In this document: positions 18,450 through 24,506 of the stretch, in pieces
How the letters are laid out: the number at the start of each line of letters is the position of its first letter
How positions within the stretch are numbered: the first letter of the stretch is position 1
Assembly: GCA_019113985.1 (NCBI GenBank)
Contig: DXGJ01000045.1
Span: 1-34,183 of the forward strand
DNA from: Candidatus Levilactobacillus faecigallinarum
GTDB taxonomy: Bacteria > Bacillota > Bacilli > Lactobacillales > Lactobacillaceae
Reading direction: 5' to 3'
DNA: 34,183 bases
Position numbers and translations under genes: made by a program
Notes under the pieces: model-generated
The model's database searches: none
The model's input: the letters and a program-made list of their open reading frames with translations, nothing else
What the model was told of the DNA's origin: nothing

Positions 18450-20144
18450 TTGTTACAGGAGCTGTCAATTAAGAATTTTGCGATTATTGATCACTTGGAC
18501 GTGACCTTTAAGAACGGGATGACCGTGCTGACCGGGGAAACTGGTGCCGGGAAATCCATCATTATCGATGCGGTAGGCCTCTTGGCCGGGGGTCGGGGGT
18601 CGGCGAGCTTCGTGCGCACTGGTACCGCCAAGGCGGTCATTCAGGGGAGCTTTGTGTTCCCCGACGATGGCGTAACGTACCGGGTCCTTGATGAGCTCGG
18701 TATCGACCATGATGATGGCAGCGTCATCTTACAGCGCGAGATTCACACCAACGGGCGCAATATTTGTCGGGTCAACGGGATGTTAGTCAACACCAATACG
18801 CTAAAACGAATTGGGGAGACCGCCGTCGATATTCACGGGCAAAATGAACATCAGGAGTTGATGCGGCCCGAGAAGCATCTAGGGATGCTCGACGAGTTTG
18901 CGGGGAAAACCGTGGCAACTCTGAGCAAGCACTATACCACCACCTATCAGGACTACACACAGCTGCGGGCGACACTAGAAAACCGGCGAGCGAACGAGAA
19001 AGAGTGGGCCCAACACCTCGATATGTTGACGTTCCAGGTCAACGAGATTGAATCGGCGCAGCTCCAGCCTGGTGAGGAAGACCAGTTGACGGCGGAACGT
19101 GACCGTCTGGATAACTATCAGAAAATTAACGACGGGTTGCAGAAGACCCAGGCCATCCTGACCGGGGAGGAAGCCGCACCTGGAGTTAACGATCAGCTCA
19201 GCGATGCCCTGCAGGCCATGCGGGGGATTGCTGACTTTGATCCGGCTTTCCAGCAGATCACCAGTGGGCTGGAGACGGCTTATTATGCGCTGACGGACGC
19301 TGTGGGTGATGTCTCGTCGCAGTTGGATCTACAGGACTGGGACGAGGGCCGCTTGGACGAAATCGAACGCCGGCTAGAGGTTATCAATCAATTAAAGTAT
19401 AAGTATGGAGATTCCGAGGAACAGGTCTTGAAGTACTATGACCAGATTGCCGCGGAACTCAAACAAATGGAGGCCACCGACGAGAGTGCCGATGACTTGG
19501 AGGAACGGGTTAGTCAACAGGAGTCCCAGCTACGGCAGTTAGGTGAACAGTTGAGCCAGGCCCGGCAGAAGACCGCCAAGAAGTTGGAGAAGGCGATTCA
19601 TCAGGAACTCGCCGACCTTTACATGGACAAGACGGTCTTTGAGGTCCACTTCGACCGGTCAAAGACGCTGTTGAGCTCGGGACTGGACCACGTTGAGTTT
19701 TACTTGCGGACCAATCCCGGCGAAGCGATGTTGCCGTTAGCAAAGGTCGCATCCGGCGGGGAGCTTTCCCGAATCATGCTGGCCCTCAAGACGATTTTCT
19801 CCGAGTCCCAGGGGGTCACGTCGATTATCTTCGACGAAGTGGATACCGGGGTCAGCGGCCGGGTCGCCCAGGCGATTGCCGAGAAGATCAGCGGTATCGC
19901 CAGCGATTCGCAGGTCCTGTGTATCACGCATTTACCGCAGGTGGCGGCGATGGCTGACCACCACTACTTCATCTCGAAGCAGATTACGGGCAACCGGACC
20001 AAGACTCAACTGACGCGGCTCGATGCCGATAAGCGGGTCGATGAGCTCGCCCGAATGTCGGCAGGGACCCAGGTCACCAAGCTGGCGATTGAACACGCCC
20101 AAGAATTATTGAATTTAGCGGATGAGGCGAAGGCAAAACGATAA
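18450..20144 (+). CDS. recN: DNA repair protein RecN
   Basis: 564 residues. SMC-like ATPase that acts early in double-strand-break repair. The Walker A motif GETGAGKSIIID is at 29-40. A coiled-coil middle follows (about 150-370, rich in Glu, Gln and Leu), then the ABC signature ASGGELSRIML near 434 and Walker B SIIFDEVDTGVSGR near 458. The TTG start is chosen because AGGGAGG precedes it and the product begins LQELSIKNFAIID, as expected. No LexA-type box was seen upstream, in contrast to the YolD-like gene 3 kb away. A strong terminator follows the stop. Confidence 0.94.
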   Translation: MLQELSIKNFAIIDHLDVTFKNGMTVLTGETGAGKSIIIDAVGLLAGGRGSASFVRTGTAKAVIQGSFVFPDDGVTYRVLDELGIDHDDGSVILQREIHTNGRNICRVNGMLVNTNTLKRIGETAVDIHGQNEHQELMRPEKHLGMLDEFAGKTVATLSKHYTTTYQDYTQLRATLENRRANEKEWAQHLDMLTFQVNEIESAQLQPGEEDQLTAERDRLDNYQKINDGLQKTQAILTGEEAAPGVNDQLSDALQAMRGIADFDPAFQQITSGLETAYYALTDAVGDVSSQLDLQDWDEGRLDEIERRLEVINQLKYKYGDSEEQVLKYYDQIAAELKQMEATDESADDLEERVSQQESQLRQLGEQLSQARQKTAKKLEKAIHQELADLYMDKTVFEVHFDRSKTLLSSGLDHVEFYLRTNPGEAMLPLAKVASGGELSRIMLALKTIFSESQGVTSIIFDEVDTGVSGRVAQAIAEKISGIASDSQVLCITHLPQVAAMADHHYFISKQITGNRTKTQLTRLDADKRVDELARMSAGTQVTKLAIEHAQELLNLADEAKAKR

Positions 20145-20334: not shown

Positions 20335-20377
20335 TGAAATAAATAATGTAACACTTTTAGTGAGAGGTGCAGGAATT

Positions 20378-23269
20378 ATGTGGCGAAAAATAGGTTGGTT
20401 ATTAATACCATTGGCAGCAACAATTATAATATTTTTAGGTAATTCGGTCGTTCGAGCGGATAATACGGCCAGTAGCAACGGGACAACAAATATAGATAGT
20501 CATATTACGGGGCTATCTGCACCTAGCTCAATTGGTTTGTTACATGATGATAAGGAAACGCCAATTGAGGATATCAATGCACCCTTAAAAAAGGGTGATC
20601 AGTATAAACTACATTATGCATTTAGCATTGATGATGACAGCAATGCTTTTAAACTGAAAGCCGGGGATACGGCTACGGTCACTTTGCCCAAGACGAGTCT
20701 ATATTCGGGAAATGCGACTGGAACAATTGTCCAAAAGGGGACGGGAGCAGTTATTGGAACCATTGCTATTACCGGTGCCACTAACACAGGAGTTATCACC
20801 TTTACGGATGCGTTAACTAGTATGACGTCACGATCGGCAACATTTGAAATCCTGACCAGTGGTTCTTATGATGCCGGTGGGACGTCGACAGATTCAACGG
20901 CTCGAGCAATTTCGAAGGTTGGCTGGGTCAGTGATAATGACCGGGATGCTAACGGCGTACCAACGAAAATTACTTGGAATATTTCGATTAATAACGAAGG
21001 TAAAGATTATGGGAATACGACGGTTGTTGATTACTTAGGGGAAGACCAAGAATATATCAATGATTCAGTTAACATGGTTACCGCCGGAGATCAAAAACCA
21101 ACAGTTACCGTTGAGGGTCAGAAGATTACATTTCGTTTTTTGAATGTTAAAAAAACAACGGCGTTTACATATCAAACAACACCAGGAGACCTAACGGGTA
21201 AAGATACAGCGACCTTTACGAACCGGGCAGACTTAACGGCAGATAATGGAACGACAGGAGCAGTTGGTAACGATGGAACGACGACCAATAAGACCCCAGT
21301 TGAGGTTAATTCTAGCTACACGTGGCAACGGCCCGGTGGGGTTGGAGACGGTCAGTATTCCGCTCAATTGACTAAAACTGACAATGGTAAGACGCCAGTA
21401 CCTCTGGAAGGCGCTGAATATACACTAAAACAGTATACGGACAGTAACTATACGGCTTCCACAGCTACGATAATTGGAACCCAAAAGACGGATAATAAGG
21501 GACAGGTACTGTTCAAAGATTTGACTGCTGGGTATTATGCCTTCAGTGAAACTACGCCACCAACTGGCTATAAGCTTAATTCAGAGTTGGTTAAATTTGA
21601 AATTAAGAAGGCAAATATGACGGTTTCGCAGACGGATGAACCGAAGGACGCCACTGGTAATATTACTTTGACAAAAGTTGATAAGTCAGATGCAACCAAG
21701 GTCCTATCTGGCGCGGTGTTTGATTTGCAACGTAAAGATGCTGATGGTCATTACGTTGACAATAAAACCGGGCTTACAACGGATGAAAAGGGTCAAATTC
21801 ACGTTGATAACTTATCAGTTGGCGATTATCGTTTTGTCGAAAAGACCGCACCAAATGGTTATAGTCTGAATCAGGATACACCACAGGTGGTCACTGTAAC
21901 CAAGGATGCTACAACTTCAGTTACGGTTCAAGATGCGCGGAAGCCTGAAGAAGATAAAGGAAGCATTACGCTGACAAAAGAAGATGCGGCTAATTCAGCA
22001 ACCAGGTTAAAGGATGCCGTATTTGATTTGCAAGAAAAAGGCACGGACGGGGCTTACACTAATGTTAAAGGTAAGACCAGTCTGAACACGGACGAAAAGG
22101 GCCAGATTCATGTCACAAATTTACCTGCTGGTACTTATCGGTTTGTTGAAGTGAAAGCGCCGAAAGGGTATGAAAAGGATAGTAGTGCCCCTCAAGAGAT
22201 TGTAGTCGCCAAAGATACTGAGGCAACGGTGACGGTCAAAGATGTGAAGACGATTGATAAGGGAAGTATCACGCTGATAAAGACTGATGCGACCGATACA
22301 GCCACGAAGCTCGCCGGTGCCGTGTTTGATTTACAACTAGAAAACACCGATGGTAGCTATAGTAATGTGACGGACAAGACTGGTCTGACCACAGATACGC
22401 AGGGGCAGATTCATGTCACAAATCTCCCTGTTGGAAATTATCGGTTTGTTGAAGTCAAAGCACCAGCTGGCTATCAGTTGGCTCAGCCAACCGAGGCCTT
22501 TAAGGTTGGCACGGACGCAACAACAATGGTCACAGTTAAGGATGCTAAGACGATTACGCCACCCATCAAGAAACCGGGTCAAGTGATGCTTACCAAAGTT
22601 GATGCTGTCGACATAAACACAGTCTTATCCGGAGCGACATTTACATTGCAACAGAAAAATACTGACGGTAGCTACAGTGATGTATCAAAGGCAACAAAGC
22701 TGACGACGGATGATCGTGGTCAAATTTATGTTGGTGATTTAGCAGTCGGCGAATATCGATTTGTTGAGATTACGCCACCAGCTGGCTATGATCTTAACAA
22801 TCAGGCTGCTACTTTTACAGTTAAAGTTGATGCAACAGCAGTGCAAACAGTGATGTTTAAGGATCAACAGACTCCAACGACACCAATTACACCGACAACG
22901 CCAACGAACCCGACAAATAATGGATCGTCATCTTCAGGTTCAAACGGTTCTAGCAGTTTAAGTTCTTCCAGTTCCTCAAGTTCTTTAAACGAAACATCGA
23001 GTTCTTCGACGCCAGCAGCTGGTGGTAGCGGAGAAAATAATGCAACTGGCAATGGCCAGTCTGATACGCCGGTTTCATCGACCCAACGCGTGATGACTAG
23101 CCAGCAAGCCAATACACCTACGGCAACGGCTAAACGACATGCTACAGTGGGACGGTTACCACAAACTAGTGAACAGAAAATGGCAGGAATGATTATTTTT
23201 GGTCTTGTTTTGTTAGTCGGTGGCACGTTAAGCTACACGGCTTGGCGCCGCAATCGGTCCAAGAATTAA
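20378..23269 (+). CDS. LPxTG-type surface adhesin with SpaA/Cna-B modules
   Basis: 963 residues. A signal peptide (MWRKIGWLLIPLAATIII then FLGNSVVRA, cleavage near 29) is followed by an Ig-like adhesin region (about 35-320) resembling the ligand-binding N-terminal part of Cna/SDR-type adhesins. Five SpaA/Cna-B-type modules of about 100 residues start near 324, 426, 527, 626 and 734. Each has a Lys in ITLTKxD and Glu in YRFVExxAPxGY, the residues that form isopeptide bonds. A Thr/Pro/Ser-rich wall spanner (about 833-900), the LPQTSE sorting signal (about 927), a hydrophobic helix and a basic tail complete it. It should be anchored to peptidoglycan by sortase. ATG 20378 is preferred over GTG 20360. 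It is visibly AT-richer than its neighbours, suggesting transfer. Confidence 0.9.
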   Translation: MWRKIGWLLIPLAATIIIFLGNSVVRADNTASSNGTTNIDSHITGLSAPSSIGLLHDDKETPIEDINAPLKKGDQYKLHYAFSIDDDSNAFKLKAGDTATVTLPKTSLYSGNATGTIVQKGTGAVIGTIAITGATNTGVITFTDALTSMTSRSATFEILTSGSYDAGGTSTDSTARAISKVGWVSDNDRDANGVPTKITWNISINNEGKDYGNTTVVDYLGEDQEYINDSVNMVTAGDQKPTVTVEGQKITFRFLNVKKTTAFTYQTTPGDLTGKDTATFTNRADLTADNGTTGAVGNDGTTTNKTPVEVNSSYTWQRPGGVGDGQYSAQLTKTDNGKTPVPLEGAEYTLKQYTDSNYTASTATIIGTQKTDNKGQVLFKDLTAGYYAFSETTPPTGYKLNSELVKFEIKKANMTVSQTDEPKDATGNITLTKVDKSDATKVLSGAVFDLQRKDADGHYVDNKTGLTTDEKGQIHVDNLSVGDYRFVEKTAPNGYSLNQDTPQVVTVTKDATTSVTVQDARKPEEDKGSITLTKEDAANSATRLKDAVFDLQEKGTDGAYTNVKGKTSLNTDEKGQIHVTNLPAGTYRFVEVKAPKGYEKDSSAPQEIVVAKDTEATVTVKDVKTIDKGSITLIKTDATDTATKLAGAVFDLQLENTDGSYSNVTDKTGLTTDTQGQIHVTNLPVGNYRFVEVKAPAGYQLAQPTEAFKVGTDATTMVTVKDAKTITPPIKKPGQVMLTKVDAVDINTVLSGATFTLQQKNTDGSYSDVSKATKLTTDDRGQIYVGDLAVGEYRFVEITPPAGYDLNNQAATFTVKVDATAVQTVMFKDQQTPTTPITPTTPTNPTNNGSSSSGSNGSSSLSSSSSSSSLNETSSSSTPAAGGSGENNATGNGQSDTPVSSTQRVMTSQQANTPTATAKRHATVGRLPQTSEQKMAGMIIFGLVLLVGGTLSYTAWRRNRSKN
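21650..22865 (+). repeat. Four similar ~300-base SpaA/Cna-B coding modules
   Basis: Modules start near 21653, 21957, 22255 and 22577 (spacing 304, 298 and 322 bases). They share the order ITLTKxD, AVFDLQ, TTDxxGQIHVxNL, YRFVExxAPxGY. The two middle modules are closest at DNA level, sharing the stretch CAGATTCATGTCACAAAT, which suggests duplication. A fifth, more divergent module precedes them near 21349. Confidence 0.8.
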
Positions 23270-23292
23270 CCGCAGAATAGAAGAACGGTATG

Positions 23293-23342
23293 AAAAATAC
23301 GCGTTAACCGACATGGAATAGGGATGTTGGTTAACGCGTATT
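23293..23342 (-). terminator. Convergent terminator between adhesin and YolD-like genes
   Basis: A perfect 14-base stem, AATACGCGTTAACC with GGTTAACGCGTATT, and further ACAT/ATGT pairing inside. On the minus strand the stem is followed directly by TTTTT, so it ends the YolD-like transcript; the plus side has only TTGGTTT, so it may also stop adhesin transcripts less cleanly. Confidence 0.8.
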
Positions 23343-23357
23343 GGTTTGAAGGACGGT

Positions 23358-23690
23358 TTAGTGTAAACGCAGGCGCTGAATCGACCGCAGCATCGTGGGG
23401 ACCACGATGGTGGTGAGCTTGCCGGAGCGCAGGATCAAATGGTCGGCGGCATCTTGTTGAAGATACCCACTGACCGTCATGGGGGCGACCTCTGGTGCCG
23501 CCTTGAATTGGAGTTGGACCCGGTAGTGCCGGGTCACAGCCTGTTGGATGAAATAATCTAATTGAAAAGCGGGCATTTGCGGATAAACGACTTGGCCATT
23601 GACCATGGGCAGGTCACCAAAAAATTCTTGATAGACGGTGGCAACCCGATTCGTAATCGTTGCCAGTCGACGGGCAGTAGAGTCTTCCAT
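23358..23690 (-). CDS. YolD-like protein under SOS-type control
   Basis: 110 residues, small and soluble. The C-terminal half (about 45-108) has the alternating strand pattern and HYRVQLQF, TVSGYLQQ and TTIVVPTMLRSIQRLRL endings that I associate with YolD-like proteins. That family is often encoded beside Y-family DNA polymerases (UvrX/UmuC-like) in Firmicutes. No polymerase gene is next to it here. The ATG at 23690 is preferred over GTG 23699 because GAGGTGAT lies just upstream. Its promoter carries two LexA-type boxes, which supports a DNA-damage role more strongly than the weak sequence family assignment. It is convergent with the adhesin gene and divergent from gmk. Confidence 0.68.
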   Translation of the reverse strand: MEDSTARRLATITNRVATVYQEFFGDLPMVNGQVVYPQMPAFQLDYFIQQAVTRHYRVQLQFKAAPEVAPMTVSGYLQQDAADHLILRSGKLTTIVVPTMLRSIQRLRLH

Positions 23691-23701
23691 GCTGATCACC
23701 T

Positions 23702-23715
23702 CGAACGTTTGTTTG
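23702..23715 (-). promoter_or_regulatory. Second LexA/SOS box
   Basis: CGAACGTTTGTTTG keeps both CGAAC and GTTYG half-sites of the Gram-positive SOS box (CGAACRNRYGTTYG), with one mismatch in the centre. It lies just downstream of the expected transcription start, 29 bases from the first box. Confidence 0.65.
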
Positions 23716-23724
23716 TGTATTTCT

Positions 23725-23753
23725 ATTATACGAACACGTGTTCAAGATTGCAA
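23725..23753 (-). promoter_or_regulatory. Promoter of the YolD-like gene
   Basis: On the minus strand TTGCAA, a 17-base spacer and consensus TATAAT (23730-23725). A LexA-type box fills the spacer, so repressor binding would exclude RNA polymerase. Confidence 0.8.
23731..23744 (-). promoter_or_regulatory. LexA/SOS box in the promoter spacer
   Basis: CGAACACGTGTTCA matches the Gram-positive LexA (DinR) consensus CGAACRNRYGTTYG at 13 of 14 positions, with the perfect palindrome GAACACGTGTTC at its core. It lies between the -35 and -10. Confidence 0.83.
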
Positions 23754-23891
23754 GTCTTTTCTTGATTTTGGTTTTTTCGACATCGAAGCACGCATAAACC
23801 GTTAAAGAGTGGTAATATAGTAACCTATAGATTATAGAATGCCGGTCGTGACGACTCGGTCAGAATTTATTCATGAAGGGATTTTTGAACA

Positions 23892-24506
23892 ATGGCGAAA
23901 CGTGGAATGCTCATTGTGCTCTCGGGTCCTTCGGGAGTCGGTAAGGGAACTGTTCGGAAGGCACTTTTTGAAACGGGTGACACCGACTTTTCCTACTCCA
24001 TCTCAATGACGACCCGGAAGCCCCGCGAGGGTGAAGTAAACGGTGTCGATTACTACTTTGTTTCTAAAGAAGAGTTCGAAGAAAATATTCGTAACGGTGA
24101 GATGTTGGAGTACGCCAAGTATGTTGACAACTACTACGGTACCCCGTTAAAATATGTTAATGAGACCCTTGATCAGGGTAAGGACGTTTTTCTGGAAATC
24201 GAAGTGAACGGTGCCATGCAAGTTCGGGCCAATTGTCCCGATGCCGTTTTCGTTTTCCTGACGCCGCCTGATTTAATGGAATTAAAGCACCGCTTGATTG
24301 GTCGGGGCACGGATGCCATGGACGTGATTAACAAGCGGATCAAAAAGGCCGTGGGTGAGATTCGGATGATGCGGAATTATGATTACGCCGTGGTAAACGA
24401 CGAGGTCAGCAATGCCGTTGACCGCATCCAGATGATCATTCGCAGTGAACGTTTACGGGTAACCCGAGTAATGCCGGATTACGAACAGATGATTGGAGAC
24501 GAATAA
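23892..24506 (+). CDS. gmk: Guanylate kinase
   Basis: 204 residues. Converts GMP and ATP to GDP and ADP. The P-loop GPSGVGKGT is at 12-20. The GMP-binding region has [21 protein letters not shown] (about 37-57, in two pieces) and [13 protein letters not shown], followed by the lid [15 protein letters not shown] precedes the ATG. No clean promoter was seen in 23754-23891, although that stretch has several AT-rich -10-like words (TAATAT near 23814). It heads the gmk-rpoZ-coaBC-priA run, as in Bacillus, and may be needed for GTP and (p)ppGpp balance. Confidence 0.96.

Follow-up and report, generated by a model that had tools for sequence, protein, structure and literature searches.

The 34,183-nucleotide stretch analyzed here, hereafter the window, is an entire contig (DXGJ01000045.1; G000:C16) of a draft genome of Candidatus Levilactobacillus faecigallinarum, the assembly of which is 72% complete. 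A 110-codon gene preceded by two putative LexA boxes occupies its minus strand between a gene for an LPXTG surface protein (20360-23269) and gmk (23892-24506). Our favored reading, to which we give a probability of roughly 55%, is that the gene by itself makes up an SOS unit of the Lactobacillaceae, repressed by LexA and inherited vertically, and that it encodes a stand-alone accessory factor acting through a YolD-type barrel. SOS control of the gene is well supported by the sequence, and the gene is probably an undescribed part of the DNA-damage response of these bacteria. The locus is common to most of the Lactobacillaceae genomes searched and is not a local oddity. The unit consists of the following elements, in window coordinates.

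23725..23753, minus strand: promoter TTGCAA-17-TATAAT, the sole sigma-70-like match within 23200-23950
23731..23744, minus strand: putative LexA box 1, TGAACACGTGTTCG, inside the -35/-10 spacer and abutting the -10, one mismatch to CGAACRNRYGTTYG
23702..23715, minus strand: putative LexA box 2, CAAACAAACGTTCG, within the 5' leader and immediately ahead of the Shine-Dalgarno sequence, one mismatch to CGAACRNRYGTTYG
23697..23701, minus strand: Shine-Dalgarno sequence AGGTG
23358..23690, minus strand: gene for a 110-residue protein with a predicted YolD-type barrel and without the arm discussed below, ATG at 23690 and stop codon at 23358-23360
23291..23342, minus strand: intrinsic terminator, a hairpin (23296-23342) followed by a U run, -22.5 kcal/mol, z -9.2

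An earlier note, made from the sequence alone, had described a consensus promoter with a 13/14 SOS box in its spacer, a second box 29 bases away over the start region, and a strong terminator belonging to the gene itself. The promoter and its spacer box stand as described; shuffles of 23200-23950 average 0.6 sigma-70-like matches. The second box is also present, its start 29 base pairs (bp) from that of the first, but it lies in the 5' leader and not over the start codon. ATG 23690 is preferred over GTG 23699 as the start because the Shine-Dalgarno sequence sits at 23701-23697. The terminator is likewise confirmed, as none of 200 shuffles folded as well; a simple terminator scanner with a loop limit of 8 does not list this hairpin, whose loop is 9.

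Single near-matches to the box are unremarkable, since the window contains 10 at two mismatches or fewer against 12.5 expected from shuffles. Across the draft genome, 45 matches at one mismatch or fewer were counted versus 17 for a backward control pattern; palindromes score on both strands, and the 45 matches represent 34 distinct places. When this list is read by eye, the only pair within 100 bp is that of the 110-codon gene. The genome also encodes LexA itself (G000:C17:14871-15470; TIGR00498, 217 bits), with a box ∼53 bp upstream of the lexA start, together with single boxes upstream of dinB (91 bp) and of a uvrB-like gene, which we take to be uvrB (93 bp, both from the box center). Divergent from lexA and downstream of the same box is an 82-codon reading frame (L039:1619-1864, on G000:C17), which presumably resembles the YnzC family of the Bacillus subtilis lexA region.

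Within the genus, the protein is present in 35/35 genomes searched. Both boxes, each with at most one mismatch, are found at all 34 other genus loci, invariably 27 bp apart from start to start, so that the spacing in the window is two bases longer. Alignment of 33 genus upstream regions shows an unconserved sequence ahead of the promoter (majority-base fraction 0.44), against fractions of 0.84 for box 1, 1.00 for the -10, 0.98 for box 2, and 0.99 for the stretch between box 2 and the ATG. A hairpin and T run follow the stop codon at most of the 34 loci (judged by eye, unscored). The coding sequence is under purifying selection: the ratio of nonsynonymous to synonymous substitution rates (dN/dS) is 0.03-0.12 wherever dS stays below 1.5, which holds for 10 of the 13 pairs compared; synonymous sites are saturated in the remaining three. 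The copy in genome G018 (L009:1408-1749; G018:C1:1205070-1205406) is split over two frames by a frameshift or sequencing error, and its boxes are intact.

The same arrangement extends well beyond the genus. A profile built from 28 of the 35 genus proteins, leaving out the frameshifted G018 copy and six near-duplicates of kept rows, finds the gene in 163 of 397 Lactobacillaceae genomes and 19 of 40 genera. From the 138 non-genus genomes matching this profile, and hence by protein matches, 38 loci were hand-picked for genus spread. A wider profile of 44 proteins, 11 from the genus and 33 from these 38 loci (L097, which has an internal stop, L115, L119, L121 and L123 were omitted), finds the gene in 281/397 genomes and 31/40 genera. 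Around the -10, a script located a box pair (≤2 mismatches) at 36 of the 38 outside loci, with a spacing of 27 bp in 27, 28 bp in 6, and 31, 34 and 36 bp in one each; neither box exceeds one mismatch in 27 of these 36. L119 also carries boxes 27 bp apart, with a -10 missed by the script filter, bringing the paired loci to 37/38; the sole exception is L121, where a good pair is absent. Elsewhere in the same 38 stretches, the same pair rule returned 0 pairs in 773,076 strand-bases over both strands. That the spacing stays near 27-28 bp from one genus to another suggests a joint role of the two sites, and the retention of paired boxes at 34/34 genus and 37/38 outside loci supports, at the level of sequence, the LexA control that the earlier note had predicted.

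Farther afield, the wider profile matched 9 of 299 genomes across Bacilli. G649, from another family of the order, holds a match (1.9e-16) with two boxes 28 bp apart in a different neighborhood. In G070, a distant Lactobacillaceae genus, the match is only 0.006, yet the gene has two boxes 28 bp apart and is flanked by genes reading as recN and gmk; because the match is weak while locus and boxes are the same, some genomes without a match seem to hold copies too diverged for detection. Separately, the copy in G270 (L097; G270:C1:718720-719028) has its internal stop within the matched stretch, and its paired boxes are intact.

The description of the product as YolD-like in the earlier note appears half right: profile comparison indicates that the barrel is homologous to that of YolD, and the protein is not a full YolD. 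Against YolD proteins of umuC operons, the C-terminal barrel aligns with an hhalign value of 96.6% and a score of 58.15, whereas 100 column shuffles never exceed 18.66 and a reversed control gives 10.96. A helix and five strands follow in the same order in the predicted folds of both the family and YolD, both have Hfq-like structural matches, and the solved folds nearest to the predicted structure include Hfq, Lsm and WYL domains. The N-terminal part of the YolD alignment, however, reaches a probability of only 0.2% against the family. A 2026 modelling study treats YolD proteins as subunits of the polymerase, into which an N-terminal arm of theirs is predicted to insert (PMC12926913); from that text and from its position, N-terminal and before the barrel, the DRGxxKW segment of YolD was taken to be this arm. 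Neither DRG nor DRGxxKW occurs in the first 75 residues of any of 71 family members (34 genus, 36 outside, and the window's own), with a stray KW in L115 and a stray L-P/S-E/D-H in L123. The YolD alignment comprises 21 of 32 DRGxxKW proteins found by motif, and its 21/21 motif count is by construction; an unselected count finds a DRGxxKW YolD neighbor at 13/14 umuC loci. The charge differs as well, with a median isoelectric point (pI) of 9.6 (range 5.4-10.4) in the family versus 5.5 (4.8-9.3) in the 21 YolD proteins. On that reading, if the DRGxxKW segment is the arm, the family would be the converse of the published arm-only small subunits, with the barrel kept and the arm lost.

The Pfam YolD profile (PF08863), proposed as a check in the earlier note, matches 0/28 genus members at E≤10, 0/44 members of the wider alignment at E≤0.16, and none in the genome of the window, although this is a weak test, since the model also misses the umuC-operon YolD of L156 and places that of L163 just below the cut-off. 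YolD is not among the best 25 of the 27 Pfam families matched by the 44-member alignment at E≤10, and searches of Pfam, NCBIfam and PHROGs with the protein itself returned no family match. Pfam CRS1_YhbY matched 8/28 members (best E 0.039) and was dropped, as only 2/44 matched in the wider alignment. As a side observation, the Lactobacillaceae umuC operons of L150-L161 (e.g. L156:390-722) contain an extra unnamed gene of ∼103-115 codons, mostly between umuC and yolD; its L156 copy has no credible Pfam match.

The gene stands alone, as the earlier note had it: tblastn (E≤1e-8) detects no DinB or UmuC match beside it in the 38 outside stretches of ∼10 kb each, no Y-family polymerase is found among the window neighbors scanned, and the unit ends at its own terminator. 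The further proposal in that note, a partner polymerase encoded elsewhere, is not supported as stated, given the missing arm-equated segment and the distribution of the gene. The 397 Lactobacillaceae genomes were searched with a Y-family catalytic profile, and matches were labelled, in terms of our own, DinB-range (E 1.8e-42 or better) or UmuC-range (1.9e-32 to 1.2e-25); a low single match could be a diverged DinB, and G096 (2.3e-34) was omitted as ambiguous. The gene occurs in 26 of 42 genomes with a single DinB-range match (17 at E≤1e-6), in 19 of 41 with a single UmuC-range match (17 at E≤1e-6), and in 236 of 305 with at least two Y-family matches. Because it is kept where only a DinB-range or only a UmuC-range match is present, neither polymerase seems obligate for it.

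Two features of the same counts would allow a looser link to Y-family polymerases: none of the eight genomes without a Y-family match holds the gene, and its share is highest where at least two matches occur. Seven of these eight small genomes belong to one genus, g23, and keep lexA above the curated cut-off; the eighth, G067 (g34), has only a weak partial LexA match. Since nine more g23 genomes that do have a Y-family match are also without the gene (read from the lists), the 0/8 may reflect genus g23 rather than the absence of a polymerase. The genus of the window cannot separate these readings, because all 34 other genus genomes have at least two Y-family matches; the draft genome of the window yielded DinB alone, and at 72% completeness its lack of UmuC is not evidence.

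A distinct set of polymerases was encountered in seven close relatives (L200-L206, e.g. L203:2698-4676), which encode an unusual Y-family enzyme of ∼500 residues whose catalytic domain (PF00817, 86-94 bits) is lengthened. A ∼150-codon gene with a conserved RAAQFAPFAAL stretch follows it in six of the seven (none is listed for L202), and the L203 copy of this gene has no Pfam match. Five of the seven genomes have no ordinary UmuC match, and four of the seven stretches have no LexA box at one mismatch or fewer.

The sequence itself shows the promoter with its operators, the terminator, the conservation of the locus, the barrel homology, the absence of the N-terminal segment and the basic charge; binding of LexA, induction and the whole biochemical role of the product are inferred. 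In an undamaged cell, two LexA dimers would sit on the DNA, one in the promoter spacer next to the -10 and the other in the leader just past the transcription start, together blocking initiation and early elongation. LexA dimers 27-29 bp apart (2.6-2.8 helical turns), or 27-28 bp (2.6-2.7 turns) as across genera, would not share one face of the DNA; classical side-by-side cooperativity is therefore not to be assumed, and the tight, cooperative control predicted in the earlier note is not supported as stated. Upon DNA damage, RecA-stimulated cleavage of LexA would free both sites, and the gene would be transcribed alone up to its own terminator. The product would consist of a helix followed by a small basic SH3/Sm-like barrel, the latter either derived from the YolD barrel domain or sister to it; its barrel surface probably acts on DNA or on a replisome protein in damage tolerance, rather than the protein serving as a UmuD-type subunit inserted into one Y-family polymerase. 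A bolder version, which we hold tentatively and would not bet on, is that the YolD barrel, having shed the arm and become positively charged, gave rise to a core SOS effector family of the Lactobacillaceae. Its members would be Sm-like and under LexA control, would bind DNA, RNA or the replisome directly, and would work in a damage checkpoint or in tolerance without depending on any one Y-family polymerase.

The alternative to be taken most seriously, although we judge it rather improbable, is a polymerase helper acting in trans, with the barrel binding a DinB or UmuC encoded elsewhere and regulating translesion synthesis, a role already proposed for the distant Staphylococcus YolD. It would account for the barrel homology to the umuC-operon YolD, for the 0/8 and the preference for genomes with at least two Y-family matches, and it has a parallel in Staphylococcus aureus, where yolD lies away from umuC and both are LexA-controlled (PMC6511836; PMC11442139). 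Yet the arm-equated N-terminal segment that the family lacks is the sole part common to all three small subunits of that polymerase type reported in PMC12926913, and the gene is also kept where the Y family is represented by just a DinB-range or just a UmuC-range match. The loss of this segment, the reversed charge and the full YolD that already sits beside umuC (13/14 loci) are our reasons for preferring a stand-alone factor to a polymerase helper. Less probable again is an Sm/Hfq-like regulator, whose basic barrel would bind RNA or single-stranded DNA and adjust expression or DNA handling after damage; the Hfq, Lsm and WYL folds among the nearest solved structures point this way, as do the median pI of 9.6 and the presence of K or R at the positions of R54, R102 and R106 in 82, 75 and 77% of the 44 aligned rows.

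The stretch QMPxxQLxxF could also be read as a beta-clamp motif, with the protein competing for the sliding clamp during SOS, an explanation we consider doubtful. Its key residues are well kept (Q43 in 44/44 rows, F47 in 42/44), and the consensus QL[S/D]LF compares with the QLNLF given for UmuC in PMC3716654. By our own wording of the motif, 60/71 members fit a loose form but only 17/71 the strict one, and Q43 aligns with a position where YolD often has E, so it may instead be a helix cap. Clamp motifs bind in extended form, whereas this stretch is a confidently predicted helix. That the boxes are due to chance or belong to another regulator, leaving the gene outside the SOS regulon, is scarcely credible: single one-mismatch boxes are indeed common, with 17 control matches in the same genome, but pairs are kept at near-fixed spacing across genera with no such pair elsewhere in the same stretches, the pairing recurs in another family at another locus (G649), and the genome encodes LexA and other boxed SOS genes.

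Two neighbors of the LexA-boxed unit are conserved and lie outside it.

23892..24506, plus strand: gmk (guanylate kinase; Pfam Guanylate_kin), divergent from the 110-codon gene
18450..20144, plus strand: recN-like gene (Pfam SMC_N), which we take to be recN

Genomic neighborhood analysis finds gmk in 20/20 genus stretches and 38/38 outside stretches, in the latter always divergent and within ∼2 kb, and the recN-like gene in 18/20 genus stretches (the remaining two end early) and 33/38 outside stretches. Between the recN-like gene and the 110-codon gene, the window encodes a SpaA-domain LPXTG surface protein (20360-23269). Most of the fetched relatives carry a variable, similar surface protein in the same slot, at 28-42% identity, and this interval looks like a hot spot for surface-protein change. 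The protein family led to 31 named relatives, of which 29 belong to Levilactobacillus and two are recorded as Lactobacillus sp.; L. brevis ATCC 14869 has the gene, and the closest proteins are those of L. namurensis and L. spicheri (75% identical), followed by L. acidifarinae and L. zymae (72%). A mobile origin was considered and set aside, as plasmids gave no match by tblastn and phages a single weak one (E 8e-3, covering 55% of the query); a Foldseek search against viral models gave at best E 7.3e-3, to unnamed proteins.

Among the papers listed by literature searches on this gene or on YolD in lactobacilli, judged by title and opening of the abstract, no description of the armless family was found. 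A 2013 reconstruction counts 13 LexA target operons in Lactobacillaceae (PMC3616900), and a regulatory prediction for the gene may already exist there. The role of YolD itself is disputed, as modelling makes it a polymerase subunit whereas recent B. subtilis genetics suggests that YqjX may not be needed, with no interaction detected according to unpublished data mentioned there (PMC13335488). A widespread barrel-only family with LexA operators would indicate that the barrel is selectable alone and would open a clear route to its function. For lactobacilli of food and gut, the gene is also a candidate new member of the SOS regulon.

Several known systems bear comparison with the family. Like Hfq/Sm-like and WYL proteins, it is predicted to form a small five-stranded barrel after a helix, and PMC4012209 assigns YolD to the WYL superfamily; unlike them, it belongs to no such family by its sequence-profile matches, from which they are absent. 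Escherichia coli UmuD is likewise a small SOS-controlled protein, and an SH3 barrel has been modelled in both UmuD' and YolD, although the paper that describes this found YolD and UmuD to be unrelated in sequence (PMC6511836). Closer in arrangement is the distant yolD of S. aureus (SACOL1986), compared here by description only, which is also of yolD type, has a LexA box, and is already known to lie under LexA control away from umuC; a single SOS box is quoted for it, and it is called the presumed umuD counterpart (PMC6511836; PMC11442139). The nearest known relative is YolD/YqjX (PF08863), the small subunit gene of Gram-positive umuC-like operons: whereas the window's family has no DRGxxKW segment, is basic and not acidic, does not lie beside a polymerase, and does not match Pfam YolD, the two are alike in the predicted barrel, in the order of secondary-structure elements, and in their apparent control through LexA boxes.
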